A DNA stretch of 64,000 nt from Thysanoteuthis rhombus (taxonomy: Eukaryota > Mollusca > Cephalopoda > Oegopsida > Thysanoteuthidae). Each line of letters starts with the position of its first letter. The first letter of the stretch is position 1. The notes under the pieces are model-generated. The model saw nothing but the letters and a program-made list of their open reading frames with translations. It had not been told where the DNA came from and did not search any database. Location of the stretch: contig OY735218.1 of NCBI GenBank assembly GCA_963457665.1, forward strand, positions 44,082,135 to 44,146,134, given 5' to 3'. The translations under genes and the position numbers were made by a program. Positions 916 to 63,690 of the stretch are shown piece after piece.

Positions 916-2725
916 ATCATCATCATCATCATCAGTCTTTTAACGTCCGTCGTTGGAGATAAACCTTCCCCAAGATCCGCCACATTTCTCTGCCATGGTC
1001 GTCGCAGAGCCAGTATTTTCTGAATTCGTCTATTTTGTCGGCCTCGGTTTTGCACGTGGTTTCTGGGGATCCATGTTGTGAGTCGTGGTGTCCATCAGTT
1101 GTCTTCATTCTCGCAATATGACCAGCCCATTGCCATTTGAGTTTTTCTAATGGATTCTTTGACGTCTCTGACACACGTTTTCTTTCTGATATATCAGTCT
1201 TGTGATATTTCCATGTTTCTCCCATGTGCACGCTGCATGCTTCTCAGTTTGCAGGTTTGTCTCTTGGTTAGGTTCCATGTTTCAGCTCCATAAGTGACTA
1301 TCGGGAGGATGCATTGATTGTATATTCTTCTTTTTAGGGTTATTGGGATCGTCTTGTTTTTGAAAGTTGAGCTAGCTCTGCCGAAAGCTTGCCATCCTAG
1401 GGTGATTCTCCGCTTGATTTCTTCTACTTTTGCGGACTTCATAGAGATTTGTTGTCCTAAGTAGATGTAGTGGTCTACTTTCCCCAGTTCTGCATCGTCA
1501 GTTTTGACAGTTATGTCCTTATTCTCGATGTGATTGTTGCACATGACTTTTGTTTTACTGAAGTTGATGTGCAGGCCGACTCTTTTTCTTTCTTCGTTTA
1601 GTTCATCTAGCATTAGTTGGAGGTGGTATAGACAAAGTCGTCTGCAAATCAGATATATACCGTCTATTTTGATTCCTCTGTCCAGGTTACGGAAGATCAT
1701 CTCGAGGTACGTTTTGTGAAGAGTTTGGGTTTGGTATTACCTTGTCTTACTCCTTTTACGAGTTGGAAGGGTTCAGAGTCTTTATGTAGCCTGATAAAGG
1801 AGTTGCTGTGATTGTATATATGTTGCAGTAATCTGACGTATATAGGGTCTAAACCTTGTAGAGTGATAGCCTTCATGACGATGGGAATTTCTCTCGAGTT
1901 GAATGCCTTCTTGAAGTCTGTGAATAGTACGAGTGGCATTCTGTTGGTTTATTGAATGGAGATGGTCCATGATCGAGTAGCTTGATGTTGGTGTCGTTTT
2001 CATCGGTGAGGATTTTAAATGTTTTTCAATTCTAGCTTGAAGTGCTGGGTAATTCCATTTGGTGCGTTTAGTGGTTGCAGTTTGGTGTGGAACAATTTTA
2101 TGCGTTCTTTACTGGTGTTTACTTGCACCTTACACCTTACCATTCTATGCTCGCTTCCTATTTTCACTTGGTTTAGAATTTAAATATCTTTGAATGGTAG
2201 TCTATTTCGCTTTTGGTTTCTCTTCTAAGTCCATTTTCTATTGCGTTTCTTTTTGAAGAATATATTCATAATTTTCATGTCATTTGCAGTTGCAAAGTCC
2301 ACACCTCTCTCATACCGTCTTCTGTATACGAATTCTCCAACAGAGCGTTCGTTTCCTTGTCCTATTTGTGCATTGAAATCTCCATGATGTTGAAGTATTT
2401 TTTTTGGTATCTTGTCATTCAAGTCGTCATAGAAGTTGGTTGATTGCGAAGTGGGAGCGTAGACTTGGATGACATTTAACTTGTACCTCTTTGAGAGTTG
2501 TATGGTAACGCTGGCTATGCAGTCTGAAATAGCTTTGAAAGCTACCACGTTGTTTAACTTTCTCTCTTCCGTAGCTGCAGAGAAAAATGTTTGCTTTTCA
2601 ATTCTATTAGTTCTGGTCTTCTCATTTTACGAATACCGATGATGTCCCATTTGATGTTTTTGATTTCGTTCTCTAGATGGGTTAGGTGGGAGTCTGTTGA
2701 GAATCTTCTGACGTTTTAAGTGGTT
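916..2725 (-). mobile_element. RTE-like non-LTR retrotransposon, copy 1, decayed
   Basis: Read on the minus strand from 2725 to 916 this is a fossil of an APE-endonuclease non-LTR element. The N-terminal endonuclease appears at about 2715-2250, with NVRRFSTDSHL, KWDIIGI, VIQVYAPTS and DFNAQIG. The reverse transcriptase follows at about 2000-1190, with TDFKKAF, ITLQGLDPIYVRLLQ, FADD (in a shifted frame near 1655), GLHINFSKTKVM and YIYLGQQISM. The C-terminus (WAGHIARM...GKVYLQRR) lies at about 1130-940. The 3' end is a (CAT)n tract at 916-934 on the plus strand, the short microsatellite tail typical of RTE elements. The DIIG-x-x-E position, normally the catalytic Glu of the endonuclease, reads Lys here (DIIGIRKMRR). 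The RT finger region is missing, and frameshifts are numerous, so the copy is inactive. Confidence 0.88.
2225..2720 (-). pseudogene. Endonuclease domain of RTE-like copy 1
   Basis: This is the exonuclease-endonuclease-phosphatase fold that nicks target DNA for target-primed reverse transcription. Conserved landmarks are VYAPTS and DFNAQIG (around 2375-2465) and the upstream KWDIIGI motif (around 2635-2655). Frames change between about 2550 and 2600. The active-site Glu of the first motif is replaced. The domain ends near 2225 in a lysine-rich stretch, after which the expected RT N-terminus is absent. Confidence 0.75.
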
Positions 2726-10901: not shown

Positions 10902-11995
10902 TCATCATCATCATCATCATCAGTCTCTTAGGGTTCGTCGTTGGACATAGACCTTCCCCAAGATTTGCCACACCTCTTTCATGGGCGTCACGGAACTTGT
11001 CTAGCTCGTCTCTCCATCTAACATTTTGCCAGCCTCGGTTGCGCATGTGGTCTCGGGGAATCCATGTTGTGAGTCGTGATGTCCATCGATTATCAGCCAG
11101 CCCACCGCTATTTGAGATTTTTTATGGATTCTATGATGTTTTTTTCCCGGATGTGATCTCCCCAGCATTATTCTTTCATGTGCACGTTGCATGGTTCTCA
11201 GCTTACGGGTCTGTAAGTTCCATGTTTCAGCTCCATGTGACTATTGGGAGGATGCATTGGTTATACACCCTTCTCTTTAGGATTAATGGGATCTTCTTAT
11301 TTTTGGATCTTGCCATCCTAGTGTGATTCTTCGCTTGATTTCTTCTTCTTTTGAGGGTCTCATGGAGATTCGTTGCCCTAGGTAGATGTATTGGTCTAAT
11401 TTCTCGAGTTCTGTGTCCTCGATTTCGATCTTAGTGTTTTTAGAAGATCATGTGTAGGCCGACTTTCTTGCTCTCTTCATTTTTAGCTTGTTCACGTAGC
11501 TGGTTTTCATCGAGTGTTTTTATGATTTATGATTTGGTTGGTGATGATCTTTGTGAAAAGTTTGTATACAGAAGGCTTATAGGCCTATAGTCGTTGGGGT
11601 CTTCTGGGTTTCCTTTTTTATATAAAAGCATTATGATAGCAGTGTTCCAATCTTTACTGTGTTTTAGACACAAGTTGAAGAGGACGGCCAGTTTCCTAGT
11701 GATGATTTTACCTGCTTTCCGGAGTAGGTCGATGGTGATGTTGTCTGGTCCAGGGGCAGTTCCTTTCTTCGTCTGTTTAATGGCTTCTTCCAACTCCCAC
11801 GGGGTTACTTTTGAGAAGTCCTCCAGTTGTTTGCCCGTGTCTTGCTCATTGTTTTGCCGTCCTTGTTTGGACGAATAAAGTTTTTAGTAGAATTCTTTGG
11901 CACGTTCGACAATCCCGTCTCTGTCTGTTGTTAGGTTTCCATTTTCCTCGAGTATGCTAGTTATGTGCCTTCGTCCCGAGTTGAGGAGTTTATTT
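10902..11995 (-). mobile_element. RTE-like non-LTR retrotransposon, copy 2, inside satellite B
   Basis: The minus strand carries the RT N-terminal region at 11990-11535 (KGTAPGPDNITIDLLRKAG, DWNTAIIMLLYKKGNP, DYRPISLLY), followed by LFTKIITN in another frame. After an internal deletion near 11485 it jumps to the region after the catalytic box (ESKKVGLHM, YIYLGQRISM). It ends in the C-terminus and a (CAT)n tract at 10902-10922. The endonuclease and the catalytic FADD region are missing. It interrupts a family B monomer at tgtttcatat, so it inserted after the satellite formed. Confidence 0.88.
11527..11880 (-). pseudogene. Reverse transcriptase N-terminal fragment of RTE-like copy 2
   Basis: The frame preserves RT finger motifs: APGPDNI, the LLYKKG motif (conserved Lys in strand 2 of the fingers) and NDYRPISLL. 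The frame breaks right after RPISLLY. The next residues of the family (LFTKIITNQII) are present in a neighbouring frame, so one indel separates them. Confidence 0.8.
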
Positions 11996-21639: not shown

Positions 21640-22248
21640 TCATTGTTTATGATATTCTCCACCATATTCTTCAATGGCTTGCTCATTCATCCAGCTCTGT
21701 ATCGCTTGATTGTAACATCCCCTGCCCCAAACTTCTGTCAAAATGACTACTATGACTGGCACTACCCTGACTTTCATGTTCCACATCTTTAGTTCTCTTG
21801 CTAGATCTGGGTATTTTTCCAGTTTTTCACTCTCCTTCCTCTTTACTCTATGGTCTGCAGGCACAGCCATGTCTATTATTTGGCAGGTTTTCTTCTTCTT
21901 GTCTATGATTACCAAGTCCGGTCTTCTTCTTCCCAGAGTAATTTGTGGGTTCCATTCTCCAGGGTTGCCTCTGGTTTGTGCTGGTACCACTTTTCCGTAT
22001 GGTTGAATCCCATTCGTTTCCCAGTGTATCACCGTTGCTACTCTATCGTGTCTGTGCTTATACTCCTTCTGAGCGAGTTGACTGCATTCATTAGTTATGT
22101 GGTTTATGGTCTCATCTCTTTCACCGCACAGGCGGCACTTATTGTTTGTCTTGTTTTGATATTGTTTGTTCTGATGCATTTGTTTTGAGCTTCCATGATG
22201 AGCGATTCCGTTTTTCTCTTCAGGTTTCCTTTTCGTAGCCATGTCCAT
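21640..22248 (-). pseudogene. Non-LTR element C-terminal domain with CCHC-like motif
   Basis: The 202-residue frame contains CRLCGERDETINHITNEC near residue 40, a zinc-binding C-x2-C...H...C motif found after the RT domain of several non-LTR retrotransposon groups. It continues with QLAQKEYKHRHDRVATVIHW, RRPDLVIIDKKKKTC, IIDMAVPADHRVKRKE and MKVRVVPVIVVILTEVWG, which is the conserved nuclease-like tail of these proteins. The frame is unbroken to a stop at 21640, so this part is relatively young. The start codon used in the frame is only the first Met after the upstream break. Confidence 0.85.
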
Positions 22249-22289
22249 GGTCTCTCGTCCACCACATCTTGTATCTATCTTTTAAAATC

Positions 22290-23829: not shown

Positions 23830-24612
23830 AGGAATTAAAATAAAAGGCGAATATCCGAGTAACCACCGACGACCTTGCCCTTTTTGTAGAAAACCTACAC
23901 GACCTGCGACTAATGCTTGATTAACTAAATGAAGGAAGCAAGAAACTCGGCCTCCACATGAATTTCAGCAAGACAAAGATTATGTACAACAATCACATTG
24001 GAAATGAGATCAAAATCAATGACGCCGAACTGGACAGAGTAGACCATTACATCTACCTAGGACAATGAATCTCCATGAGACCCTCAAAAGAAGAAGAAAT
24101 CAAACGAAGAATCACTCTAAGATGGCTAGCCTTTGGCAGAGCAAGTTCAACCTTCAGAAACAAGAAGATCCCATTAATCCTAAAAAGAAGGGTATAAAGA
24201 CAATGCATACTCCCGATAGTCACTTATGGAACTAAAACATGGAACCTAACCAAGAGACAAACCTGCAAACTGAGAAACATGCAACCTGCACACGAAAGAA
24301 TTGGAGAGACCACGGGACGGTAAAATATAATCTGGGAGAAAACAGGAGAGTGAGACATCATAGAATTCATCTAAAAAAGCTTAAATGGCAATGGACTGGT
24401 CATGTTGCAAGAATAATAGACAACGGATGGACATCATGACTCACAATATGGATTCCCAGACACCACTTGCGCAACCGACGCCGACGGAATATTAGATGGA
24501 GAGACGAACGACTAATTCAGAAAGTATTGGCCCCGCAGCACCCACGATAGAGAAGTGAGGCGAATCCTGGGGAAGGTCTATTTCCAACGACGGGCGTTAA
24601 AAGAAGATGATG
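23830..24612 (+). mobile_element. RTE-like non-LTR retrotransposon, copy 3, 5'-truncated
   Basis: The plus strand starts in mid-RT (GIKIKGEY), then TTDDLALFVENLHDL, where the family has F-A-D-D; both Asp residues are kept. It continues with KKLGLHMNFSKTKIM, YIYLGQ, RITL, the ALF/RASSTF region, GPWNLTKRQTCKL-like sequence, KLKWQWTGHVARI and GKVYFQRRALK. It ends in agatgatgaa at 24603-24612. It is the same family as copies 1, 2, 4 and 5. Several stops and indels are present. The 5' truncation inside RT is typical of incomplete target-primed reverse transcription. Confidence 0.88.
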
Positions 24613-26900
24613 AATTTTCCGATTAGAATGGGGTAAAAATTAAAGAAGACGTACCTGATTGCTGAAAATGCCACTTTCCGGACAGCAAACTTCTCTGATC
24701 GTATTTGAAGGGTAGAGTCATTGGTCAACCCCAAAACTCACGGAAAAGCCATACGACGCTCCAAGGCTTCGAAGCAGCTGATGTATTCCAACTAACGGGC
24801 CTGAATGGGTGAGTGAAATGCCATCCTTGATCCAAAAATTGGCAGGAAAAATAGAGACAGAGATAACGGGATGTTTTAATGAATCGTGAGTGATCTGATC
24901 AATGAGTTAGTACTTCTTGAGATATATCGTGTCGTTCCTCCGTAGCAGGAGATGCGGACGACGTGGATTCATAAGTCGTATTTAGGCAAGATGCAAGAGA
25001 GGGTACAATGTTAGTTTGAAGGATTAACGTAGCTTGTCTCACGTTCCACTAGTTATTACATTAGGATCACAAAATACCCCGAATAAGTATATCTAAAAAG
25101 ATGGGTCGAGATTGTACAGAAAGCTAAATCCTTCCTTTTTTTTTTTCAACTTCACTTTTTTTTTAAATGGTTGGTGACTGTAAAATTGAATATATTCTCT
25201 CTAGATAAGCATAGCTTTTGACAGGAGTTGTTTGGTTTAGTTAAGCAAAAATTGTGAGGGAAGAAGTGGTAGTACGCAATAAATGTTCGACCTCTCTCAA
25301 GAATTAGATTATTTTCCGTCTTTTATACCCAATGACTCGCTCAAAAAAAAAGGCAACAGAGGGAAAGGCATCATACGATAGATTTTCCCTGGGCAGTGAC
25401 TGGGAGGGGAACTTCCTAACTATAGAACAAGCTAGGAGAACTGGAATAGCAAGTACCAATTAGACAAAGTGGTTAGATCTAGGTTAAAGAGAGTATTCAC
25501 TAGAGCAATTAAAATTTGCGCTAAACTCCGCAAGGAAGAATTGCACTGTTGTCTGGATCAATGTATTTTTATGCTTACACGCCAGATGTGGTCACCCTTC
25601 AAATGTAAGCAGAAATCTGAGCAACTTTCCACAAGCATTTGTAGGAGCTTGGCTTGTACGAGCATGTTTTGTTCCTAGGACACTACTGATAAATTTGAAT
25701 TAGTTGGTTGGAGTAGATTATCAGATTTTGGTTGCCTAGCTATATCACGCACTGGGATTAGTCTCCTATACTGGTACCCGAGCACTGTGGTGCAGGTGAA
25801 TGGAAAATGATCAGAGCCATTCGAGATCTTACAGTTGAGGGACAGGGCGTCAACACCGGTCCAGTTTAGAATGAGCCTAAATACACGATATCAGACTAGA
25901 GAGTATCGTGGAGCCTAGTATAAGATATTTCATTTCAATGACATTTCACGACTTAGAAAGACACCATAGTGGGTCATAATGGTGGTAATCACTTCGGTGA
26001 ACCGAGAAGCTCCTTTCGAAGTGGTTTTAGTTTCTAGTAGTTGATTACTTCGTCACCAACTTGTTGGGTGGACTGAAACACTGGCCCTCATCTATTTCCT
26101 AAATCTCTCACGTCTGGCTCACAGCGCTATACAATGGACAACATCATTAGCTGACCGGAAAATACAGCATATGCCTTCCCAGAAGTCTCCGGCCAAGAAG
26201 AACTTCAACGATAATGTGTTCAGGACAAGTCGATCCATGGGTTATGTTGAGATTCGGCTGTAGTCAATAGCCTGAGAGGGGATAGGCTCCGTCAGGCCAT
26301 CTCACCCTTGACATACCCATGATGTAATAAACCATCTTTTAGGGCGTATCGGATCAGTGGCTGCCCAGTATAACAATGACTGCACTTACTTTCGCATGCC
26401 AGGATGAATACAAATGTATGCTGCTGGTGACCAGTCCAGTGAGATGAGAAAAGAGGGAAAACTGTCATTGGTACATAGACGTAAGAACGCACAGACAACA
26501 GGGAAGGTAAAAGAACTAACACATGAAACAGAGAGATGCCGCTGGGACATTATAGTTACGTTAAGCCACGATTTACTTCAGTTGGAAAGATGACGAACAT
26601 GGAAACGTCGTAAGATTCTGACAACACGAGGAAATCATAGCACGGTTAAGGATTGTAACTTCTTTCAGTCATTATTCAGATATTTCAACATCTAACTACA
26701 ACAACGACAAAGTGAAGGAAAAACAGCTACAGGATATCTTGGGTCAGACACCAAAAAGACATCGTAATAATCCAAAAAGACTTGAACAGGATGCCTATAT
26801 CAACTGGAAAGGCACATGTGGACAGAAATGTAATGCAAGAACCAATATACGATACCAATACGTGATTTTCGCCCGATTCATTTAAGCCAACGTTTTCTCT
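24613..26900. other. Unassigned, about 2.3 kb
   Basis: No convincing gene. Open frames at 25469-25678 (plus) and 26292-26522 (minus) show no known motif. Base composition is closer to 40 percent G+C than the satellite region, so a decayed element is possible, but none was recognised. Confidence 0.4.
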
Positions 26901-27667: not shown

Positions 27668-28036
27668 AGTTTATTTATTTGTATCTCCACGACTACAAAT
27701 ATGACACAAGGTCGGATTAAGATGGGGTCCCACACGTTCGAGAACGTGCAAGCAGAGTGAGCGACCTGATTCCTTGCGCATGATTTCGCAAGGAGGTCGG
27801 GACAAGCTGGACTAGGTCGACAGGGCGAATCCTGTTGTTCAAGATTCCCTAACTCTCGACGTGCGTTTGCACGGAGTCATTAGGGCATGCTTAACATGGT
27901 TCAGAGGACGAATCCTGTTGATGCTCTCAGGATGATCCTGAGCATGCTGGTCAGTGCTTCCGGGATGGGGACAATCCCGGACATTGATCAACTTCTCAGC
28001 CCGAGGGCGTCAAAGAACAGATACTACACTTTGATC
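27668..28036 (-). repeat. U2-headed unit d, downstream of the Tx1 LINE
   Basis: On the minus strand this starts with a U2 snRNA fragment (28036-28013: GATCAAAGTGTAGTATCTGT then TCTT). It then follows the same body as the 399-bp units at 33168-34345: CGGGCTGAGAAGT, GGGATTGTCCCCATCCCGG, GACCAGCATGCTCAGG, ACCATG, AGCATGCCCTAATGACTCCG, ACGTGTGGGACCCCA, GACCTTGTGTCA and GTCGTGG. It ends in AATAAATAAA. It is more diverged than units a and b and has a shortened U2 head. It directly follows the 3' end of the LINE and separates it from the mariner flank. Confidence 0.85.
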
Positions 28037-28526
28037 TACCGATTCATTGAGTTTCTATCTATAGAAAATACAAAAACTTGCGCACTGGGGCCGAATTGAA
28101 GGGTTTGGTCTTTGTTGACTATCTTACTCTTAACTCGATTCTTTCGTGACCCATTCACACATATGATATCCAGACACCACAAAATTCATTCATCCTTCCA
28201 ATCCTATCATTCACCAAAATACTCCATTTACTTTGATGATTTGATCTATTCCTACATGATTGTCCCTTATATACAAATTATGATGATGTTCTTGGGATTG
28301 GGGAAAAATTGTATGCAAAACTAAATAAAATCCGATGGGCCTGGGTTAGTATGGGTCCCTCCCTACCCTTGCTATTGGGAAGATCGCCAACTGTTTTCTT
28401 TTACTTTCACAGAAACAAGCTGGTCAATATCTATGATATGATTTGAGGGGGGAAAATACGGGGGTCCTATGTAACTAAAGTTGAGTTTTATGGTACATTC
28501 ATTCTTCTAGCTAGGAGTTCTCTACC
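28037..28526 (-). other. 3' UTR of the Tx1 LINE
   Basis: About 490 bp between the ORF2 stop and the U2 fragment at 28036. It is AT-rich and non-coding in the sense direction. It ends ...AATGAATCGG, then TAGATCAAAGTG of the U2-like sequence. It shows no similarity that I can see to the 3' part of the U2-headed units. Confidence 0.6.
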
Positions 28527-28989
28527 TTAACTGGGGTGGGTTCCCGAACAAGAATCTGGACTGTCTGTGCCATGTATCGATGGTGGGAAGAAAAACTCCC
28601 ATCTGGCGCCTTTCCACACAACCAAGCTTGCTGCTTTCACCCATTTTTCGTTGAATTCTATGCGATGTAATCTTTTTCGATCACATCTAATTTTCACCTT
28701 CAATTGATGTTTGAAGAAGTCAATCAGATTCTGATGCGAAAAAGACACGTTCTCATAGAACTCCTTCTGACGCGTCGTCCATATCACCATTCTTGCTATT
28801 GCCAGTATCGTGTGAAACACCATTCGTCTCACCCCGGGCCATGGAGGCGAAACGCTGTCGCATACATAGGCAACATCTAGCAGGATTTTCTGATCTGTGT
28901 TGAGGCGAGCCGTCACCTCATTGACGTAGCTCCAGAGCGGGCGAACTTTGTCACAGTTGAAGAAGGTGTGCTTGTCCGTTTCTTCAATT
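28527..28989 (-). pseudogene. C-terminal tail of Tx1 LINE ORF2
   Basis: This is the end of the protein after the zinc-knuckle stop. It begins KHTFFNCDKVRPLWSYVNEV (28965-28915), continues with LNTDQKILLDVAYV, PPWPGVRRMVFHTILAIARM and WTTRQKEFYEN, and ends at a stop at 28527. The region between RT and this tail (29297-28989) is an intact frame with WCWAPGVEYLNN and FSLTWRLVWNALPL. Confidence 0.8.
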
Positions 28990-29396
28990 CAACTGTTGCA
29001 TCGGGGACAATCGGGCATGTCCGCCGAGCCCACTCTGAAAGCTGAGTCGTTAAGGGGTAGCGCATTCCAGACAAGTCGCCAGGTGAGAGAAAACTCAGAG
29101 TTGTTGAGGTACTCTACACCTGGCGCCCAACACCACAGGGAGCGGAGCTCCTCTCCCGACATACAAAGCCTCTCTCCGAGCGGATCATCCGTGGCACCTT
29201 CCACTAATATCCGATATAGTATCTTTCTAGGCTGTGAAAGGTCACTGGACCGAGGAAGCTTGCTCAATGCCCGCCGGCATTCACTGAGGAACAGCACTTC
29301 ACCCCTAGGCCAACGACGGCTCTCGGCTTCGGGGTTGAGCTCGAGGTTAGGGAAAGCATCCCTAATCCCATGCAGGTTCCTCCGTCAAGGTTCTGT

Positions 29397-30231
29397 TCAG
29401 GAATGCCAACCTTTCCGCATACTGGTGGCTCTCCAAATGTGGCATTCCCAAACCCCCATTACGTCTGTCCAGCGGAAGGAGCCTGGGAGGGATATGAGCC
29501 TTCTCCAGGCACCTAACTGCAGGCCGCTTGACTTGCTGCGGTTAATCTTGGCCCCCATTACCTGTTCGTATCGTACTATCGCCTTCAGTGCCGCTCTTAT
29601 GTCCTGCTTACAGGACACAAAGATGGTCACGTCATCGGCGTACGCAGATACCCTAGCTCGAGCTCTGCCAGGGAGTTCTATTCCGCGTAGGGCCGGGCGT
29701 ACCGCCTCATCCCTTAGCCTGCAGAGCGACATTGGACAACCCTGTCTAACCGAGCGCAAGACTGCGAATGGCTCCGACCGCTTTTCATTGACTTGCACCA
29801 CTGCTCTATGCGAGCGGTACAAGAGGTTTATCCACTTGTAGAAATCCGATTCGAATCCGGTGGTTTGCATCACTGTTGCCAAAAACTGATGGTCCACCCT
29901 ATCAAACGCCTTGGACTGACATCCTCAAGTATAGTTCATAGGGCAGGCCATCCAGTCCCGGCGACTTGTTCTTGCCAACCTGTTTCAGTGCAGCAGTGAT
30001 CCGCCCCTCACAGCTAGCTGCTTCAGCAGCACCGAGGCGGGGAAAGTCAGCCAAATAGCTACGGAACTCCTGTTCACACAGGCCAGCTTTCTTGGTGAAG
30101 CGGTTCTGGAGGTGTTCCCGGAAGCCCTCGCATATGTCTCTTGTCGACTGCAGGGTCCTCCCTTGACACTGCGAATGTTTATCGGCCAATCGACGCATCT
30201 CTTCCTTACGCAAGTCTGCGTCTAGCTTCAC
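29397..30231 (-). pseudogene. RT domain of Tx1 LINE ORF2 with internal deletions
   Basis: Two frames make up the domain. The upstream frame (30231-29905) ends in SPGLDGLPYELYLRM. The downstream frame (29897-29397) opens at VDHQFLATVMQTTGF, with the KAFDR codons just before it in the same frame. Between them the RT fingers that normally separate the GLPYE and KAFDR motifs are missing. Within the second frame RQGCPMS is followed at once by LCRLRDEA, so the usual helix after the PxS motif is also shortened. YADD and the GAKINRSKSSGL thumb motif are intact. Confidence 0.85.
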
Positions 30232-31303
30232 AGCTTCGTTGAATAACCTAGCCTTAACTATCTGACCCTGATAGCGCTCGCTAACCGATTGCTACAGGTC
30301 TCTCTTAACTAGTTCTATACTTAGGGTATCCCCCCCTCTGCCACCGCCCGGTCTAATTTCTCCTCTAGTAACGCTTTTGTCTTAGCCTTATCTAGCACGA
30401 GTCGTTGGCTATATTTTTACAGTAAGCGTTCTAATCTTATTTTTCAGGTTAGACCACAACTTATTTCCCGTAACTGCCCCCACTAGTTCCCACTGTATTA
30501 ACCTCTCTAGCTGTTCCCGGAAGTCCTCTCTCTCCAGTAAGGAGGAATTGAACTTCCAGTAACTAGCTAGACTAGGCCTATCATTTAATCGCATCCGAGC
30601 CATCACCAATTTATGGTCGGAATGCCCTAGCCAGTGAAACGTGGGGCAGGTTAGAAAATCTATGTCGACTCTCCTTACTAATATTCTATCCAGGTAAGTT
30701 TTGTCCTGTATAGAAGCTGCACTATGAGTCCACGTCCACATCTCCCTCCTCGGGTGATCTATACGATATCTATCGACCAGTTCGTATTCGGCGATTAGGT
30801 CGATTAGACTGCGCTCACACCATGCCTGTCCGCTAGCTCCCCTCCCTCCCTTATCTATCTTGGGGTCAAGGATGGAATTCCAATCCCCCATTAAAACTAG
30901 CCGCTTCAGGTCCGTCAGGAAAGGCCCCATCTGTCGAAACAGGGAACGCCTCTCTCCAACACTGTTGGGCGCATAAACTACGACAACCCTGAATTTGCAA
31001 CTGTTCACGGCAACATCGGCCACGATCAACCTACCGGCTGCGCCAGCGTAAACAAAATCAACTTTCACGCCGAAGGAACGTTTTACCAGCAAGGATACAC
31101 CTCTGGCATTGCGATCACCGTATGCTGAATAGACGACATAATCGTTAGCCAGCACATGCTCATCGGCAGAGCAAACAAAAAGTCTCCTGTATTGTTGCCA
31201 CATCCACTCTGAGGAGTAAGAGGTCCTGAAGCACATGCACTGCATGACTCCAATCCCTCATACCCCTCACAATCAGACTTGCCAGATCAAGAGCCATCTT
31301 CAC

Positions 31304-33060
31304 TTACCTTGTAATGTCACACACAGTCCGAAAGATCTCCGGGCGGAGAACGCCGACGGTTTGTCCTAAGCTTCCAGAGCCCAGCTCAAACGTAATCCGT
31401 CCGTCTGTGACAATTCCACCGACGTCTGAAGGGAATGTTAGCTTTAAAGCCCTATATAAGGAGGGGTGAACATAAGCCGTGACCCTCCCAACATTTATTG
31501 TTCGTTTTTTAAGAGTTTCGTGCTCCCAGTCAACCAACCTCATGCCTGGTATTACTTTTTGTGCGGCCGCTATCATGCCCCATACTTTGTAGTGGCGACC
31601 GCTCACATACTGGATGAAGGTGATCAGCATGGGAGCCTCCTTAAAATTTCTTGGGTCTTCGACCTCTTTTTCCTCCGCCTTTACTTGCTTCAGCAGAGTT
31701 CGTATGGATATTTTCAGGTGGCTCGGCAGATCCCTTTCGTAAGTAGTCCTGCCCACCCAGCATATCCCCTCCCCTTCCTGAAATGGTAGAGGCTTATACT
31801 TTCGGTGCCAGTTACTACTTCCTTTCTGCGTCCGCGTTTCATCACTTGGCTCCAGCCCTCCTCGTTCGCCGGACTCCCTGCGGCTGGAGAAGTCACCACG
31901 TTAAGGCTGAGGCTGGGCTTGACTACTGCTGCTGCGGCTGCCTTCAGGGAGTTCTTGGGGCATACTCTGGCTATATGCCCCTGTTGTCGGCAACTTCAGC
32001 AGTGTGGTCTTCTGCTTTCCACCACCACTGTTAGCTGCCGATTTCTCACCACCAGCACGTCCGGAATGCCGTCAAAATTCTCTTTGTTTATGGAGACCAT
32101 CACCGTATAGTCTCCGGTGCGGACTCCATACCTCGCCATACCTGGGGACACAAACTCGACGTCCCTGAACGCGCTGAAGAACGCCCCGATGTGTTCGCCT
32201 GAGATATCTAACGGGACGTTGAACACTGTTACCTTTGTTCTGCATCTCCCAAGATACTCGGATTGCAGCCTCGGCGTCTTAGTTTTGAGTTCCGCAGACG
32301 CTAGTCTCGCTGCCTCTTCTTTGGTTGGCAGCAAGACATCCCAAGTAGCAAAACTCCTCCGGCACATGTATTGTTTTGGAATCGCATTGCTCTTCAGCGC
32401 CTCCTCAAATATTTCCCTGGTTACGCTCACCAGCCTTCGACTGACTACATTAGAGGGACAGGGTTCTAGGCTGAAGAGCGTTCCACGTCTCTGGCACCGT
32501 TTTTAGTTCATTCCCCTCGATGAACTCTTGATACCTTTCTTTAGCCACCCTGTAGTCCTTCGTTGAACTTGTAGGTTTGGGCGACCCCCATCGCAGGTTT
32601 TCTTTCGCTGCGTGTTCTATGACTTGCGCACTGGTCTCCAATTCAGGGAGGGCGGGCCAGTCATCTATAGCGTTAGACAGTCTCCTGTCTGCGCTAGTTT
32701 TTCCTTTGGTGAACTGGTCCAAAGCATCAGGCTGGTCTATGCTCTGGCATTGGTCCTCTTGGGGTCTGGTAATCTTGGTCGCCTTGGCTAGCTCTGGGGC
32801 AAGAGATCGGCTAATACCTGTGCTTTGGCTTAGACCAAGCTGGGGGTTGGTCACCTTAGCTGGCTCCGGGGTATTAAGACTGAAGCCCTGCAGTTGGCCA
32901 CTCGGACAGCTGGCCAGCGCCACATCTTTGGGGTTGATCGTCTTGGACCGGAACGTTCAATGCCTGTTCTTCGGCCGAGACCAACGCAGGGGTTGGTCAC
33001 CGTGGCTGGCTCCGGGGCATTGATATTGTCCATCTGCCTTCTGGTCTCCGCAACGTCAGT
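31304..33060 (-). pseudogene. ORF1 (RNA-binding protein) of the Tx1 LINE, broken
   Basis: Reading on the minus strand, the N-terminal part (33060-32450) is Pro/Ser/Thr-rich. It has at least two copies of a motif of the form EPAxVTNPxxGLxxxTGIxR about 50 residues apart (MDNINAPEPATVTNP; NTPEPAKVTNP) and a weaker third copy. A central frame (32430-31996) contains an RRM-like stretch (TKVTVFNVPLDISGEHIGAF) leading into a CCHC zinc knuckle. The knuckle reads C-stop-SCRQQGHIARVC: codon TGA at 31998-31996 replaces the residue after the first Cys, probably TGG (Trp). Downstream come SLNVVTSPAAGS and EGWSQVMKRGRRK. After a frameshift near 31750 a basic C-terminal domain (31756-31304) runs up to ORF2. 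ORF1 proteins of LINEs bind the element RNA. Confidence 0.8.
31996..31998 (-). other. Premature stop inside the ORF1 CCHC zinc knuckle
   Basis: The TGA codon sits between the first two Cys of an otherwise perfect C-x2-C-x4-H-x4-C knuckle (C..CRQQGHIARVC). The frame is open on both sides, which implies a single point change rather than gradual decay. Confidence 0.85.
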
Positions 33061-33139
33061 TGAAACACTCGACCTTCACTTCCAAATCTCCAGGGACTTC
33101 ATGGACTTAGGAGACTGTAGCTGAGCGAAATGAATACAA

Positions 33140-33208
33140 CGTTTTCCGTATCAGATGAAAGGCTGATAAGAACAGATACTACACTTTGATTTTAGCCAAG
33201 AGGCCGAT
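33140..33208 (-). pseudogene. U2 snRNA 5' fragment (nt ~9-68) at the LINE 5' end
   Basis: The minus strand reads TCGGCCTCTTGGCTAAAATC, then AAAGTGTAGTATCTGTTCTT, then ATCAG-CCTTTC-ATCTGATACG. This corresponds to U2 snRNA from stem-loop I through the branch-point recognition sequence (GTAGTA) and stem-loop IIa. It differs from the general metazoan U2 at a few positions, and the loop of stem IIa is altered. U2 sequence stops after GATACGG and the LINE 5' region follows. There is no U2 promoter, no Sm site and no 3' part, so this is a fragment and not a gene. Confidence 0.88.
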
Positions 33209-33566
33209 CTATTTATTCGCATCCCCACGACTAGGAATTTGACACAAGGTCGAGATTAAGCTGGGGTCCCACACGTCCGAAAACGTGCAGGTAGAGTTTG
33301 CTTCCCGACTCCATGCGCATGATTTAGCACGAAATCGGATCAAGCTGGACTTTGTTTTCAAGGCTCCCTAACTTCTCGGCGTGCTATGGCACGGAGTCAT
33401 TAGGGCATGCTTGACATGGTTGCAGGACGAATCCTGCCTTTGCTCTCAGGACAAGCCTGAGCATGCTGGTCTTTGGTTCCGGGATGGGGACAATCCTGGA
33501 CCGTGATCGACTTCTCAGCCCGAAGGCCGACAGAGGGCCGATCGTCTTCTCCACCCAAAAGCGGAG
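33168..33566 (-). repeat. U2-headed tandem unit a
   Basis: This is one 399-bp period. The body (minus strand from 33566) begins CTCCGCTTTTGGGTGGAG (a hairpin). It runs through GACGATCGGCC, a second U2-like TCGGCCTTCGGGCTGAGAAG, ATTGTCCCCATCCCGG and further short self-complementary pairs. It ends GATGCGAATAAATAG at the next U2 head (33208-33168). It is essentially identical to unit b, including the 75-codon open frame 33627-33400, which crosses the U2 head and is not a gene. Confidence 0.9.
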
Positions 33567-33607
33567 AAGAACAGATACTACACTTTGATTTTAGCCAAGA
33601 GGCCGAT
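33567..33607 (-). pseudogene. U2 snRNA 5' fragment heading unit a
   Basis: 41 bases corresponding to U2 nt about 8-47. They include the branch-point pairing sequence GTAGTA and stop at GTTCTT, after which unit-specific sequence begins rather than U2 stem-loop IIa. Confidence 0.88.
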
Positions 33608-33965
33608 CTATTTATTCGCATCCCCACGACTAGGAATTTGACACAAGGTCGAGATTAAGCTGGGGTCCCACACGTCCGAAAACGTGCAGGTAGAGTTTGC
33701 TTCCCGACTCCATGCGCATGATTTAGCACGAAATCGGATCAAGCTGGACTTTGTTTTCAAGGCTCCCTAACTTCTCGGCGTGCTATGGCACGGAGTCATT
33801 AGGGCATGCTTGACATGGTTGCAGGACGAATCCTGCCTTTGCTCTCAGGACAAGCCTGAGCATGCTGGTCTTTGGTTCCGGGATGGGGACAATCCTGGAC
33901 CGTGATCGACTTCTCAGCCCGAAGGCCGACAGAGGGCCGATCGTCTTCTCCACCCAAAAGCGGAG
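33567..33965 (-). repeat. U2-headed tandem unit b
   Basis: Identical by eye to unit a over the whole 399-bp period. It has the same U2 head (33607-33567), the same body hairpins and the same AATAAATA end. Identity between neighbours in an otherwise heavily mutated region indicates very recent tandem duplication or conversion. Confidence 0.9.
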
Positions 33966-34006
33966 AAGAACAGATACTACACTTTGATTTTAGCCAAGAG
34001 GCCGAT
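33966..34006 (-). pseudogene. U2 snRNA 5' fragment heading unit b
   Basis: Same 41-base U2 fragment as at 33567-33607, identical in sequence and in its junctions on both sides. Confidence 0.88.
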
Positions 34007-34345
34007 CTATTTATTCGCATCCCCACGACTAGGAATTTGACATGAGGTCGAGATTAAGGTGGGGTCCCACACGTTCGAAAACGTGCAGGCAGTGTGAGCT
34101 TCCCAACTCCATGCACATGATTTAGCACGAAATCGGATCAAGCTGGACTTTGTTTTCAAGGCTCCCTAACTTCTCGGCGTGCTATTGCATGGAGTCATTA
34201 GGGCATGCTTGAAATGGTTGCCGGACGAATCCTGCCTTTGCTCTCAGGACATGCTGATCATTGGTTCCGGGATGGGGACAATCCTGGACCGTGATCGACT
34301 TCTCAGCCCGAAGGCCGATAAAGGGCCGATCGTCTTCTCTGCCCG
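33966..34345 (-). repeat. U2-headed tandem unit c, diverged and incomplete
   Basis: This is the third unit, with a full U2 head at 34006-33966. The body carries many substitutions (for example gacatgagg and cagtgtgagcttcccaac on the plus strand). A deletion of about 14 bp lies near 34253, in the gagcatgctgg region. It ends at about 34345 without the CTCCGCTTTTGG hairpin. It therefore marks the outer edge of the array. Confidence 0.85.
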
Positions 34346-35329
34346 AAGGAGACATTAATAATACTACTACTGATGCTAAGAGGGGAGCGCAGTCAATATA
34401 CTCCCGTCGGTTAAATAAAGGGTTCGGTCCGAATAATAGTAGAAATAATGATAATACCTCATCTCAAAAATTCAGAGATACACTGATATTTTTTGTTATG
34501 GCTAATATATATAGGATCCAAGTTCAATTCCCGTCAGAAGCTATTTCTGTATTTCCTCCTGCTTACCCACGGTGATATTTGACCAAGAAAGTTGTGATAA
34601 AAATCAACGGAAAGGTGAAGAAAAGACTCGGTAAAACTAGAGTAATTAGAGGAAGAGCAAGTGGTCTCTCTTTGTGTAAATACTTGTAAAATATTGCGAT
34701 GTGGAAATATTCTGCAAGAATCATTTTCAATAAAAATCGTAAATGGCCATTTTTGACTTTTTCAATACAAGAATGTGGACCTTATAAATTATACTATAAC
34801 ATCATTAATAGCTTCTTATTCATATACTTTTGTTTCAAAATACATAATACAATTTTTATTTTATTCTGTGATTAGAAAAATCAAAGAAAAGAAGGAAACC
34901 TAAAAAAATTACTTTGGGTTTTGGTATTTTCATTATTCCTAAAAATGATAAAATAAACGACTGACAGATGTTTTGAATAATTATTTTGTTTGTAGTGGGA
35001 GCTGACAGTTTAAAACCGAAAATGCTGATGTTATTCATATCGATGTCTTTGCAGAAAACATCATAACTCTGGTTGTAAATAACACTGCAATTTGGGGAGG
35101 GGGCAGAGTATAGTGTAATCTTCCTAATAGATAATATAACACACAGAAAATACATGTTTTAATACAGCACGAAGTGTTTTGTTTCTTGTTTTGTTATTTT
35201 TTAGATGGGGCTACCGATTTTTGTTTGTGTCTACAGAATAAATGTTTAGAGCACTTTTTTCATCAGTCCAATCATTTGTCTGACTCTACCTCTCTATTAC
35301 ACTTTGAATTTCTCTTGTTGCTTTTAAGA

Positions 35330-38289: not shown

Positions 38290-39835
38290 ACTGAAATTCA
38301 ACACCAACATCCCCAAAACATTATTAACATAGTAACTAAGATCCAAAGACACAGACTTCCACGAAGGCTTTATACAAGGAATTATCGCCACCTACATTAA
38401 TATAACAAACAACCACAACACATTACAACTCAGATATATACATGCATTGAAATATGTAGCCAGGGACAACAAAATATGCATCACCACTTCAGATAAAGAG
38501 GGAGGTGTTGTCATCATGGACACGCACCCCTACCTTGACAAAATTACTCCCCTCTTTAGCAACAGTAATGAAAAACAAACAAAATATCTATTGACAAAGA
38601 AACATCCAAGTTCAACACATCCCCGAAAAATATTACGATGAGAAAACAAAACATGGACTAAACCAAATACCGATCAACCCTAACCAGATTTTATGGCTTA
38701 TCCAAAACCCACAAACCCGACATTCCCTCACGATCCATTTGTTCGGGAATACATAAGATAGCTAGAGCATTAGCAAAAATCCTAACCCTGTTACTAAGCA
38801 TAATCAGTCCCTCAAACCTTAAAAACTCTGGAGATTTCATACACAAAAAAAAAAACATGAAAAACAAATTCATGGCCAGCCTTGATGTAACACCATTCTA
38901 CAACGACATTCCAATTAAGAAATGTCTGCATCTACTAAATAACCACCTAAAAACATTCAAGATCAAACTAGCCCTACTCACAAACAAAATCATCAAAATA
39001 TGTTCACTTATAAAAAAACAATGTTTTTCAGCTTCATCCGAAATTTCTAAAGACAAAAATTTGGCTTACCCATGGGGTCCTCGATAAGTGGAGTTTTAGC
39101 TTGTCTTTTTCTCGAATTTCTGGAGTCAGGACCCTTCATACATATCACACCCAAAACATTCTCCTATTTTCGCAACATTAACGGTTCCCTAATCCTATAC
39201 CTACAAAACATAGGTCTACAAAATCTAAAAGCTAAACTAAACATAGTATTAAAATCACACAAGGAAAATAATCCAATAACACACTACCTTTCTTTAACAC
39301 CCAACTACACTGATCCAACACCAACATCAAAGAACTACCACAATAAGAACGACCATATACACATTTATTCCCACAACACCAAAAAAATAAAATCGGGATT
39401 AATTACAGGTTTTTACGTAGTTTATAGCTATACTATGTATGGCCTGAATACATTGATGACGAAGAAAAATACATCGAACAATCCTCCTGCTCACTCTAGT
39501 ATCCATGACTTCATGTACAACACAAGGAGAAAAGCATATAACATTCACACAACTAATTTAACACACCACCATTGAATGCATCATATTACGCATCATCACA
39601 ACCACTACCAACATCAGCTCAACCTAAGCAAGCTGAAAGTACAGATTGCCACCATCACAATAATACCGTGCAAGGACTAGTGAAGACAACACTTACTTCG
39701 GAGACGTCTCAAGACCTCTAAAAAAGATACATGAACACAAACGAGCCCGCCCTAAAATGAGATGAAAAGACAAACGCCTTGGTCGAACACAGAAACATAC
39801 ACAAACTTAGTTTCAACTATTATATAACCCATCTC
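38290..39835 (+). mobile_element. Penelope-like element, RT and GIY-YIG fossil
   Basis: The plus-strand reading with frame changes shows DNKICITTSDKEGGVVIMDT (38465-38525) and KTHKPDIPSRSICSGI-like sequence near 38705-38750. The palm A region reads FMASLDVTPFYNDIPIKKCL (38868-38930), followed by a G-L-x-x-G-S/P-like LAYPWGP and MGSSISGVLACLFLEFLESG (39072-39130). FRNINGSLI at about 39170 stands where the family has F-R-Y-I-D-D. Downstream, KSGLITGF and RRKAYNIHT appear. Near 39690-39740 a YFGDVSRPLKKIHEHKR stretch resembles the GIY-YIG endonuclease of these elements. The catalytic Asp pair is lost and frames are broken, so it is inactive. N-terminal sequence before 38440 is poorly preserved. 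Confidence 0.85.
39072..39575 (+). pseudogene. RT C-terminal part of the Penelope-like element
   Basis: A 167-residue open frame. It starts at MGSSISGVLACLFLEFLESG (the motif preceding the catalytic box), then ITPKTFSYFRNINGSLILYL, with the YxDD box altered to NINGS. It continues as a thumb-like region ending in SGLITGF...ARKAYNIH-like sequence (here TRRKAYNIHTT). The stretch is unusually Thr/Asn/His-rich (ACA and AAC codons), which suggests directional mutation after inactivation. Confidence 0.82.
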
Positions 39836-43160: not shown

Positions 43161-44640
43161 TGCAATACATCATCTAATGGAAAAAACGATAAAGTGAAAA
43201 CGTATTTTAATCTATTTTCCCCTGCAAGCTTGATCAAATGACGTATTTTAAGTTATTTGATAGATTTCGTACTGAAGCTACATAATTTGGACTCAAGAGC
43301 GTACAATTATTGCATAAGTATATTGAATAAAAAAATACAACACCCAGGGCATTTTCAATGGTCCAGTTAGTGATTATTGAGCTGAAATCGGACAGGTGCC
43401 TTTAGACCTTGATATGAGTGGGTTTAGTTCTTATACAAATGGATTTTATAATTACTCTTGTAATACTCAACCAATTCTAATGATGGCTACCTTGAAAATG
43501 AGTCTCAAAATACCTGCCTTGTTGTCTGGCGTATCCTGATCACCGAGGTTCCATTCAGCAGGTAGCATCTCTCCTTTGCGCCAAGAGATGTAAAGTCAGG
43601 AGTGGATCCGAATGTCAGGGGTAAAAACAGAAAAACCATTATTTTTTGTTGAAACCCAGTTGAAAATAGACCTTGTGATGCAGATTACAGATGTGAATAA
43701 TGAATCTGATTATTTTGTTACGGAGGAAAACTGAACACCATTTCACTCAACGATTAGATGGATATGGAATATCTACAGTATCTCCCGAATTGAATTGATC
43801 ATATCTCAATCAAATTCATTATTTTCATTACTACTTTTCAGGTAAAGTAAGTTGGAAAAATTGGATATATGCCCCACACCATATCTTCCTTCGAAATTTC
43901 TACACAATTGCTTCAACTATTTAGTAATGTTGATGCAGTTTGCACTTTGGAATAAAACTGATCCAAAATATATTCATACTATGAAGAGTTAAATTGAATA
44001 CTTTTGACTGATATATTTTATGTCACATTTCGACTACTTTGCATTCGTTGAAAACTTTCTCCAATGTAAACATCAAATTAGACCACGTTATACAACAAAA
44101 AGAGGAAGGAAAGGAGTATTGTATGTCAGAAAAGGTATGATGTCATTAAGAGCTGTGATATCATTAAAAGAAGATCTATTTTTCTACCAGCTACTATGAT
44201 ATCATAACAAAATGTCGGAGGTCTGCATTTTCGTATTTTAAAAAGCAAAAAATAATCAAAAAAGCTAAAAATGGTCATTTATGATTTTATTGAAAAGAAT
44301 ACTCGCAGAATATTCCCATTTACTATTTTTGACAATACTTAATCAAATAATATCAATAAACTAAAAATCAATTGACTCAGAGGAAGACGACTTGCTTCCC
44401 TCTTTTGTCTACTCCTCCTCCCCCTCCTTCTGCTATAACTGTTATCATGGACAGTGGACCAATCGTTGAATTTATGGTGCTTTTTAGAATATAAATCACG
44501 TTTAATTCCTGTTTTCCCCTTTAATTCACTTAGGTGGTGATTCTCTAGTAAATTAAGAGTATTTGCGACAAAATTTTCTCTAAAAACGAGAGAGAGAAAA
44601 GTGAATAAGAAATGAGTTCTAGATCTACGTGATAGTGTGA
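43161..44640. other. Unassigned AT-rich DNA
   Basis: No gene recognised. A less AT-rich patch at 43510-43625 has no identifiable coding content. Confidence 0.4.
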
Positions 44641-44642
44641 AG

Positions 44643-45482
44643 TATTGTGGACAAATAGAGGCTGACTACTCGTCAGAGCAGAACTGGAAAAAGAAACGAT
44701 CAAAGTGACTTGAAGGCGAAGGCAGACTTGATAAATAGCCTGATATTCCATGTACTGTTTCATATTGTGGAGAAACAGAGGCTGACTACTCGTCAGAGCA
44801 GAACTGGAAAAAGAAACGATCAAAGTGACTTGAAGGCGAAGGCAGACTTGATAAATAGCCTGATATTCCATGTACTGTTTCATATTGTGGACAAATAGAG
44901 GCTGACTACTCGTCAGAGCAGAACTGGAAAAAGAAACGATCAAAGTGACTTGAAGGCGAAGGCAGACTTGATAAATAGCCTGATATTCCATGTACTGTTT
45001 CATATTGTGGAGAAACAGAGGCTGACTACTCGTCAGAGCAGAACTGGAAAAAGAAACGATCAAAGTGACTTGAAGGCGAAGGCAGACTTGATAAATAGCC
45101 TGATATTCCATGTACTGTTTCATATTGTGGAGAAACAGAGGCTGACTACTCGTCAGAGCAGAACTGGAAAAAGAAACGATCAAAGTGACTTGAAGGCGAA
45201 GGCAGACTTGATAAATAGCCTGATATTCCATGTACTGTTTCATATTGTGGAGAAACAGAGGCTGACTACTCGTCAGAGCAGAACTGGAAAAGGAAACGAT
45301 CAAAGTGACTTGAAGGCGAAGGCAGACTTGATAAATAGCCTGATATTCCATGTACTGTTTCATATTGTGGAGAAACAGAGGCTGACTACTCGTCAGAGCA
45401 GAACTGGAAAAGGAAACGATCAAAGTGACTTGAAGGCGAAGGCAGACTTGATAAATAGCCTGATATTCCATGTACTGTTTCA
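44643..45482. repeat. 120-bp satellite, seven near-identical units
   Basis: The exact period is 120 bp, with unit starts at 44643, 44763, 44883, 45003, 45123, 45243 and 45363. Variants: units 1 and 3 have gacaaatag where the others have gagaaacag; units 6 and 7 have aaaaggaaacg where the others have aaaaagaaacg. Units 1-2 and 3-4 therefore form a 240-bp repeated pair. Because 120 is divisible by three, stop-free frames persist: on minus through 45483-44545 (312 codons, 40-residue repeat), and on plus through units 4-7. I treat these frames as a by-product and not as genes. Confidence 0.95.
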
Positions 45483-45499
45483 ATTTATGGAAGAATTGA

Positions 45500-45845
45500 A
45501 GTAGTTTGAAACAATTTCTGTTATGATACAGGGAATTAGTAGAAAAGTTCTAATAAGCTTGTTTGTAAGAGTCATAATTCTGGTAAAAAAGCGGTCAAAA
45601 GAATTAATTCCTGTGGTCAACCTCGAAAGTCAACTTCGTGTTCGTGCCGTAACAAGATTCTTTAGTGCCCACCTTTCCAGCCGAAGAAAATTATTCATGT
45701 ACGGAGTTATCTACCCTTTGGAAAGGATCTACTTCTAACCCCTATATCTCTGTAGAAACGGTAATTTCCTTGTTCCCCTTTTTGACGTCAGAGAGAACTG
45801 CCAATCAGAGAGCAGATTCTTATCTTCACGATATTTAAACTGTGG
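45500..45845. other. Unassigned; CCAAT-type motif before a (CT)n tract
   Basis: gccaatcagagag occurs at about 45800 and gatatttaaac at about 45830. A promoter-like arrangement is possible, but nothing downstream confirms a gene. Confidence 0.3.
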
Positions 45846-62734: not shown

Positions 62735-63643
62735 AGTTTTCACAAAAATTCATCACCAACCCGATCACTAAAACACTAGATGAAAAACAACCACGGGAAC
62801 AAGCTGAATTTAGAAGAAACTACTAAATCACTTGGAAGGAAAAGCAGCAAAACGCAAAATGCCATTCGCTGTCGCATATATAGACTTCAAGAAGGCTTTT
62901 GACTCAATAGAAATTCTCATGGTCATGGAGGCCATCACTCTACAAGGTGTAGACCCTGTATACGTTAGAGTACTGCAACATATATACAGTCACAGAAACT
63001 CCTTCATCAGGCTACATAAAGACTCTTCCAGCTCTCAAAAGGGTTAAGACAAGGTGGTACCAGCTCACCCAAATTCTGCGCAGCCTACCTTGCAATGATC
63101 TTCCAAAACCTAGACTGGGAGAATTGAGGACTCAAAATAGAGGGTGAATATCTGAGCAACCTCAGATTTTCAGACAACATCGTCCTTTTTGCAGAGACTC
63201 ACAACTAATTCTGGATGAACTAAACGAAGAAAGCAAGAAAGTCGGCCTACACATGAACTTCAGCAAAACGGAGCTTATATGCAACAACCACATCGAAAAT
63301 AAAAATACAACTATCAAATACATGAGAGAATCATGCTCAATACAGAGATCAGAAGACAGCACAATACATCAGGGAGAAAACGGGAATTGGAGATATCATA
63401 GAATCCACTATAATACTCGAATGGCAAAGGGCTGGTCATGTTGCAAGAATGGCAGACGATCAGTGGACATCACGACTCACAACATGGATCCCCAGAAATC
63501 ACATGCGCAACCGAGGCTGACAGAATACAAGATGGAGAAACAAAATAGACAAAATCAGAAAGTAACTGGCTCGAAGACGCTCGCGATTGAGAAGTGTGGC
63601 GAATCCTGGGGTAGGTATATGTCCAACAGGAGCCATTAATAGA

Positions 63644-63690
<47 letters not shown>
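62735..63690 (+). mobile_element. RTE-like non-LTR retrotransposon, copy 4, with (GAT)n tail
   Basis: The plus strand shows KFITNPITKTLDEKQPREQA (62745-62805), then the open frame 62832-63047. That frame has VAYIDFKKAFDSIEILMVME (palm A, catalytic Asp kept) and ITLQGVDPVYVRVLQHIYSH. LRFSDNIVLFAETH near 63165-63200 stands where the family has F-A-D-D; the second Asp has become Asn. It then reads KVGLHMNFSKTELICNNH, skips part of the thumb, and ends with WQRAGHVARM-like and GRYMSNRSH sequence. The 3' end is (GAT)n at 63643-63690, about 16 units, the longest tail of the five copies. Confidence 0.9.
63643..63690 (+). repeat. (GAT)n tail of RTE-like copy 4
   Basis: About 16 GAT units at the very 3' end of the element. 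The equivalent tails are (CAT)n at 916-934 and 10902-10922 for the minus-strand copies 1 and 2. Confidence 0.95.

Follow-up and report, generated by a model that had tools for sequence, protein, structure and literature searches.

Keno is a long interspersed element (LINE) of the Tx1 clade. Among short interspersed elements (SINEs), those named SINEU, reportedly described from crocodilians by Kojima in 2015, are said to have heads derived from U1 or U2 small nuclear RNA (snRNA), to have added such heads repeatedly, and to be linked to a Tx1-clade partner, Tx1-Mar, by a common mariner target. Here we analyse a 64-kb stretch from the cephalopod Thysanoteuthis rhombus (assembly GCA_963457665.1, contig OY735218.1, positions 44,082,135 to 44,146,134; the window), in which a LINE and short tandem units stand head to tail, the LINE and two of the units sharing one altered U2-derived head in full. 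At this one locus, the U2-headed short element and the LINE probably represent a variation on the SINEU/Tx1 kind.

Several published systems are comparable. Parts of PMC4640811 describe Utopia as a NeSL-related, U2-specific element with a restriction-like endonuclease and report tandem insertions of it in Nasonia, whereas the endonuclease of Keno is APE-type; the 3' U2 flanks of Utopia start at nt 39 and those of Keno are said to be identical. The same parts name a U2-derived satellite of Ciona, U2_sat. SINEU is named in a section of PMC8010984, which speaks of avian, crocodilian and mammalian genomes for snRNA- and 28S-derived SINEs taken jointly, and SINEs with snRNA heads are mentioned in a portion of PMC7245038. 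In a single insertion, a LINE reverse transcriptase (RT) is able to link a SINE and a further RNA to a LINE, as in WEIRD/Mg-SINE/MGL of Magnaporthe and B2/U6/L1 of the mouse (PMC2104539, in part), and chimeras of LINE-1 with U6, U3, 28S and Alu are described in an excerpt of PMC13174262.

All features of the array lie on the minus strand, in the 5' to 3' order u1, u2, u3, LINE copy (33208 to about 28036, 5.2 kb) and u4 (28035-27671 including its U2 piece):

34007..34347, minus strand: unit u1, 341 bp, without a U2 head, starting in module A
33608..34006, minus strand: unit u2, 399 bp, with U2 head (34006-33966), module A, module B, structured body and AATAAATAG tail
33209..33607, minus strand: unit u3, 399 bp, with U2 head (33607-33567), identical to u2
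33147..33208, minus strand: head of the LINE, derived from U2 (nt ~1-68, with nt 10 the first unambiguous position), through stem-loop IIa by alignment
31304..33033, minus strand: remnant of LINE open reading frame 1 (ORF1), one CCHC zinc knuckle, frameshifted; the start ATG at 33033 is our choice
28527..31297, minus strand: LINE ORF2 remnant, APE endonuclease, RT and C-terminal part
28036..28526, minus strand: LINE 3' untranslated region, with CTCAATGAATCGGTAG at its end
28013..28035, minus strand: U2 piece 3' of the LINE, 23 bp, nt 26-47 plus an inserted A, exact repeat of 33190-33168
27671..28012, minus strand: unit u4 body, a single module, AAATAAATAA tail, unrelated sequence beyond

As in SINEU, the U2 5' end serves as a head in u2 and u3 (37.2 bits against the Rfam U2 family, RF00004), while it is absent from u1 and partial in u4. 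A possible sign of repeated head addition and an association with a putative Tx1-clade LINE would be further likenesses, in both of which the SINEU side is as reported. The array differs in that the LINE itself bears the U2 head, in a head-to-tail array with the short element, whereas the link between SINEU and its LINE is reportedly the mariner target and not a U2 head. An earlier note on this DNA had suggested that the elements could be an undescribed pair; as U1/U2-headed SINEs with a Tx1 partner have reportedly been published, the array would belong with them as a variant.

Keno resembles the LINE in its APE endonuclease, its RT on the L1 side and its U2 association, although the copy here is broken. 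Its 3' U2 boundary is at nt 39, not at nt 26 as here (unless the LINE 3' end itself resembles U2 nt 26-38), and the U2 sequence here is an altered fragment rather than a gene, and on the 3' side it does not extend past nt 47. Since the U2 likeness of the 3' flank spans nt 26-47 instead of starting at nt 39, this flank does not assign the LINE to Keno. Utopia shares the U2 association and has tandem insertions (Nasonia), but its endonuclease is restriction-like and that of the LINE is APE-type (Exo_endo_phos), which excludes it. The tripartite chimeras of Magnaporthe and mouse likewise join a SINE, another RNA and a LINE; theirs are single insertions flanked by direct repeats, whereas no repeat >6 bp surrounds the array. 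Monomers of the L1 type stand at LINE 5' ends only, whereas u4 has a tail of its own and stands downstream of the LINE.

The U2-derived heads

A search for the U2 core 17-mer GTGTAGTATCTGTTCTT that tolerated 2 mismatches gave 4 occurrences in the window, all exact, against a mean of 0.02 in 100 shuffles (0/100 reached 4). U2 sequence on the 5' side of the LINE, seen already in the earlier note, was found again at 33208-33147 on the minus strand and scores 54.1 bits against RF00004 (gathering score 46); a 141-nt stretch at the LINE 5' end scores 90 against U2 (0/500 shuffles as good). The heads of u2 and u3, at 37.2 bits, stay below the gathering score (E 7e-4 and 7e-5 in two scans), and u4 is not significant (18.3 bits, E 2.5). 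Chance likeness to U2 is ruled out by the 17-mer counts against shuffles together with the Rfam matches.

Units u2 and u3 and the LINE have heads that agree at every one of 41 bp. The statement that every unit starts with U2 holds in full for u2 and u3 only: u1 has no head, that of u4 is either partial, at 23 bp, or lacks 10 bp by deletion, and the third full head belongs to the LINE. All three full heads show the same departures from the U2 consensus of Rfam: near the 5' end 3-5 nt are missing, the changes U16C and G25A are present, and one A has been added after nt 30. The changed positions lie near the part of U2 that recognises the branch site, which reportedly hardly varies among animals, and a working U2 gene is therefore unlikely as the immediate source of the head. 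Because the full pieces carry common changes hardly expected in working U2, they look element-borne. Where the head starts on its 5' side is uncertain to within about 4 nt, since Rfam pairs ATAG, which belongs to the tail before it, with U2 nt 1-4.

In the Rfam alignment the LINE head continues in register as U2 nt 48-68 via stem-loop IIa, whereas after nt 47 the units have other hairpins in its place. The case for U2 nt 48-68 in the LINE rests on this register and on the alignment.

Units, junctions and the LINE copy

Upstream of the LINE the units form a tandem with a period of 399 bp, 3.0 copies and 96% matches (Tandem Repeats Finder). Units u2 and u3 are identical at 399/399 positions, and u1 agrees with u2 at 320/341 aligned positions, gaps excluded (91.5% over 402 positions by BLAST, a value that counts gaps and takes in part of the next head). 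Unit u4 is 78.8% identical to u3 over 339 aligned positions, gaps counted (BLAST), and its body agrees with u2 at 260/321 positions, gaps excluded. With the strand of the ORFs, these values bear out the arrangement described earlier, three units upstream and one downstream, all in the orientation of the LINE. The last 30 nt, tail included, are common to u1, u2 and u3, so that these units are probably local duplicates and not separate insertions; as u2 equals u3 whereas the LINE has decayed, the u2/u3 duplication would be recent, or else an assembly error. The elements have 50-52% G+C and the 2.2-kb flanks 35% and 41%. The 5' edge of u1 adjoins unrelated sequence, and the tail of u4, AAATAAATAA, runs into unrelated DNA, as expected of a retroposed short element.

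Behind the U2 head, u2 and u3 contain two modules, A and B, and u4 a single one. Modules were chosen after inspection and the module shuffles preserve single-base content only; in these comparisons A and B of u2 resemble each other (score 29, 0/2000 shuffles as good) and both resemble U2 stem-loop I (A, 9/2000; B, 1/2000). The 84-nt stretch after the u3 head, taken alone, also resembles U2 (0/500); for the first 67 nt of the u4 body 24/500 shuffles were as good. Repeated capture of U2 5' ends by the short element is suggested by these likenesses. The predicted RNA fold of u3 is better than that of shuffles (z -3.49, 0/100 as good), as is that of u4 with its U2 piece and 13 nt upstream (z -4.34, 0/100); the LINE 5' region did not fold better than shuffles (z -0.99, 16/100).

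Units u1-u4 contain no B box at up to 2 mismatches, and runs of TTTT are present in u1-u3 and not in u4; ordinary RNA polymerase III transcription of the units is therefore doubtful. ARAGORN (bacterial settings) found 0 tRNA genes in the window, and this result, the missing B box and the TTTT runs in u1-u3 rule out a SINE of the tRNA type. A search for spurious proteins across the join of tail, U2 and body found no candidate. Three unit patterns and one U2 pattern gave 0 matches each in viral contigs.

On the 3' side of the LINE the U2 likeness covers nt 26 to 47, and the u4 body resumes directly after nt 47, which is where the heads of the units end. This U2 piece, rightly placed in the earlier note, measures 23 bp (28035-28013) and forms with 33190-33168 an exact repeat that flanks the LINE; the repeat may be a target duplication, or part of a head common to the LINE and u4. 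A few bases upstream of the second copy lies ATCGG, so u4 can be read as having a full head with a 10-bp deletion. We reject a LINE inside an intact U2 gene in view of the start at nt 26, the stop at nt 47 and the common non-canonical changes. The unit bodies have no significant similarity to the LINE 5' region (u3, 23/200 shuffles as good; u4, 101/200) or to its 3' region (u3, 189/200; u4, 94/200).

ORF1 has 6 homologues; its zinc knuckle is weak in the window (14.3 bits) and just over the cut-off in the homologue P0121 (21.1 bits). Near the start of ORF1 there is a 63-bp repeat (32813-32875 and 32959-33021, 81% identical), by which a PEPA-VTNP motif is encoded twice. For the ORF2 read-through, 8000 candidates were scored and at least 131 relatives found (E up to 1e-3, best E printed as 0), the matches listed being the best 120 of 131. 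The best-scoring relative among the matches listed, P0001, is 63% identical over half of the query. One frame piece of ORF2 matches RVT_1 (53 bits, 4.6e-14), and the endonuclease (Exo_endo_phos), at 22.3 bits, is just below the Pfam cut-off of 24.5 in the window piece; P0001 exceeds both cut-offs (54.5 bits for the endonuclease). Residues 467-579 and 752-842 of P0001 have no match in the copy (tblastn). About 200 ORF2 residues are thus missing, and with several frameshifts and stops across its length the LINE copy is dead.

A profile from 17 of the 120 ORF2 relatives, compared with the PDB, gave 377 bits for human L1 ORF2, 278 for a chain called RNA-directed DNA polymerase and 121 for R2; P0001 itself gave 248.5 bits with human L1 and 103.6 with R2. 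By these scores ORF2 appears nearest to the L1 side of the LINE tree. Against five outlying LINE proteins (P0116-P0120), of which P0118 and P0120 presumably resemble Xenopus Tx1, P0001 scored 430.2, 363, 358, 343 and 332.5 bits, a pattern as would be expected of a sister group of L1 such as Tx1. LTX, an L1 endonuclease chimera in the PDB whose name we take to denote a Tx1-hairpin endonuclease chimera, scored slightly higher than L1 by profile (85.0 vs 81.6) and not higher by P0001 alone (41.4 vs 42.3). Membership of the LINE in the Tx1 clade is plausible, if unproven. Distant ORF2 relatives occur at one locus in viral contigs (27% identity) and one in bacterial contigs (30% identity), and exact GTAGTATCTGTTCTT is absent from both loci. 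The contig with the 30%-identity relative (JALWDV010000429.1, L002) is binned as an Anaerolineae metagenome-assembled genome; because it encodes a relative of a LINE ORF2, it is probably eukaryotic contamination.

Origin of the array

The explanation that we favour, with confidence that is about even, is that two kinds of retroelement, a short U2-headed SINE family and a LINE, carry one U2-derived 5' head and were arrayed by head-directed insertion or template jumping, followed by local duplication. The short element would be a structured, non-coding SINE of roughly 340-400 nt with a U2 head, and the LINE would stand on the L1/Tx1 side; a short non-autonomous element with a head in common with the LINE had been proposed before and fits the sequence. 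The head would be inherited along with the elements and not newly supplied from a U2 gene. Its first capture probably occurred when the LINE RT ran onto U2 snRNA, or through a transcript begun at a U2 promoter, and in the short element there may have been more than one capture, with the older U2-like modules B and A left inside the newest head. We infer that the short element was copied by the enzymes of the LINE, and that the joins of 3' tail to U2 head arose through template jumps or through insertions at U2 heads already in place; u2 and u3 would have come from later unequal crossing-over. In favour of this explanation stand the identical altered heads, the U2 register of the LINE head to nt 68, the u4 tail against unrelated DNA, the likenesses of modules A and B, the folds of u3 and u4, the common ends of u1-u3, the contrast in G+C between elements and flanks, and the precedents of the Magnaporthe join and of SINEs with snRNA heads.

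Several results weigh against this explanation. The evidence comes from one locus within the window, in which BLAST of the array (E 1e-3) found no further unit or LINE copies. Across the whole unit body the likeness to U2 is modest: compared with U2 nt 1-71, u3 scores 29 (6/500 dinucleotide shuffles as good), u1 29 (3/500) and u4 20 (256/500), and the u4 module is not significantly similar to U2 stem-loop I (178/2000). The predicted fold of u1 is weakly better than shuffles (z -1.96, 4/100), and in the consensus fold of three unit bodies 5/86 pairs changed on both sides, and the covariation term is unfavourable (+1.58). A SINE and its LINE can usually be recognised as a pair by a common 3' end; this copy has none, as the unit bodies have no significant similarity to the LINE 3' region. 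No word >6 bp is common to the two flanks of the array, 5' of u1 and 3' of u4. The 100 nt after the TTCTT of the LINE, taken alone, are no more U2-like than chance (53/500 shuffles as good), and if the 23-bp repeat is read as a target duplication, the LINE was inserted in the head of u4.

Such an insertion is the basis of an alternative that we consider possible, though only tentatively: target-primed reverse transcription of the LINE into the U2 head of a resident u4, with a nick at U2 nt 25/26 and 23 bp duplicated, the units then being a separate U2-headed SINE or satellite whose partner is not necessarily the LINE. It would explain the exact 23-bp repeat on either side of the LINE, the u4 body picking up right behind nt 47 where the heads of the units end, and the chance-level score of the LINE sequence past nt 47. 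However, Rfam places the next 21 nt of the LINE as U2 nt 48-68 in register; if this alignment is right, the LINE carries that part itself and the 23-bp repeat is expected from common heads alone. The ATCGG before the 23-mer, moreover, is readable as u4's own head with a 10-bp deletion. We consider it unlikely that a Keno-like LINE and a short partner inserted site-specifically in U2 genes, leaving the U2 pieces as flanking copies of the target, even though the LINE has an APE endonuclease and an RT, has U2 on both sides, and an APE-endonuclease lineage in U2 genes, Keno, is published from animals (PMC4640811, in part). The 3' boundary at nt 26 instead of nt 39, the end of U2 at nt 47 on that side and the same changes in all three full U2 pieces argue otherwise, and the earlier view of the LINE as a lineage targeting U2 genes finds no support in the identical altered pieces of this locus.

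Local homogenisation, as seen in the exact identity of u2 and u3 and the same 3' ends of u1-u3, would also be expected of a U2-derived satellite comparable to Ciona U2_sat, into which the LINE fell by chance and whose units are not mobile, and YURE LINE insertions in a U2-derived satellite are published (PMC4640811, in part). The copy number is only 3+1, however, the A-rich tail of u4 ends against unrelated DNA, and u4, about 79% like the other units, has not been homogenised, so we judge a satellite quite improbable. The units might finally be 5' promoter monomers of the LINE like those of mouse L1, as the earlier note had considered, given three tandem units directly 5' of the LINE in the same orientation and period. 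Yet u4, which is tailed and has no LINE beyond it, is placed 3' of the LINE, and the unit bodies have no significant similarity to the LINE 5' region or its other end; monomers are thus scarcely credible here.

Within the favoured explanation, a U2-derived head carried by both a SINE and a LINE, we speculate that the U2 5' end doubles as a landing site, new copies inserting at resident heads and building head-to-tail mixed arrays wherever the family lands, with U2 genes no longer needed. We regard this extension as doubtful; if true, a target-specific retroelement would transport its own target. A LINE and a short element with one altered U2 head would allow the capture of a head, the recognition of a partner via its 5' end and self-targeting to be put to the test within a single genome. 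They would also show a route by which elements that target U2 could leave U2 genes, and they bear on how a SINE persists when its head lacks an internal promoter.

Other repeats in the window

A 120-bp unit is repeated in tandem about seven times at 44545-45549, the copies being 95-99% identical, with long stop-to-stop frames of 334 aa on the minus and 201 aa on the plus strand. This is probably a coding-looking minisatellite and not a gene, and its Pfam matches look like repeat artefacts. Fragments resembling other retroelements lie at 21640-22281 (minus), 1194-1736 (minus) and 38662-39575 (plus); among them is a zf-RVT-like C-terminus (20.6 bits, below the cut-off of 27.5), and the pieces without a Pfam match are, we assume, RT- and Penelope-like. 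Dispersed repeats of one family, several hundred bp long and 70-77% identical to one another, occur in both orientations at 926-1631, 10914-11431, 23895-24613 and 62882-63653.

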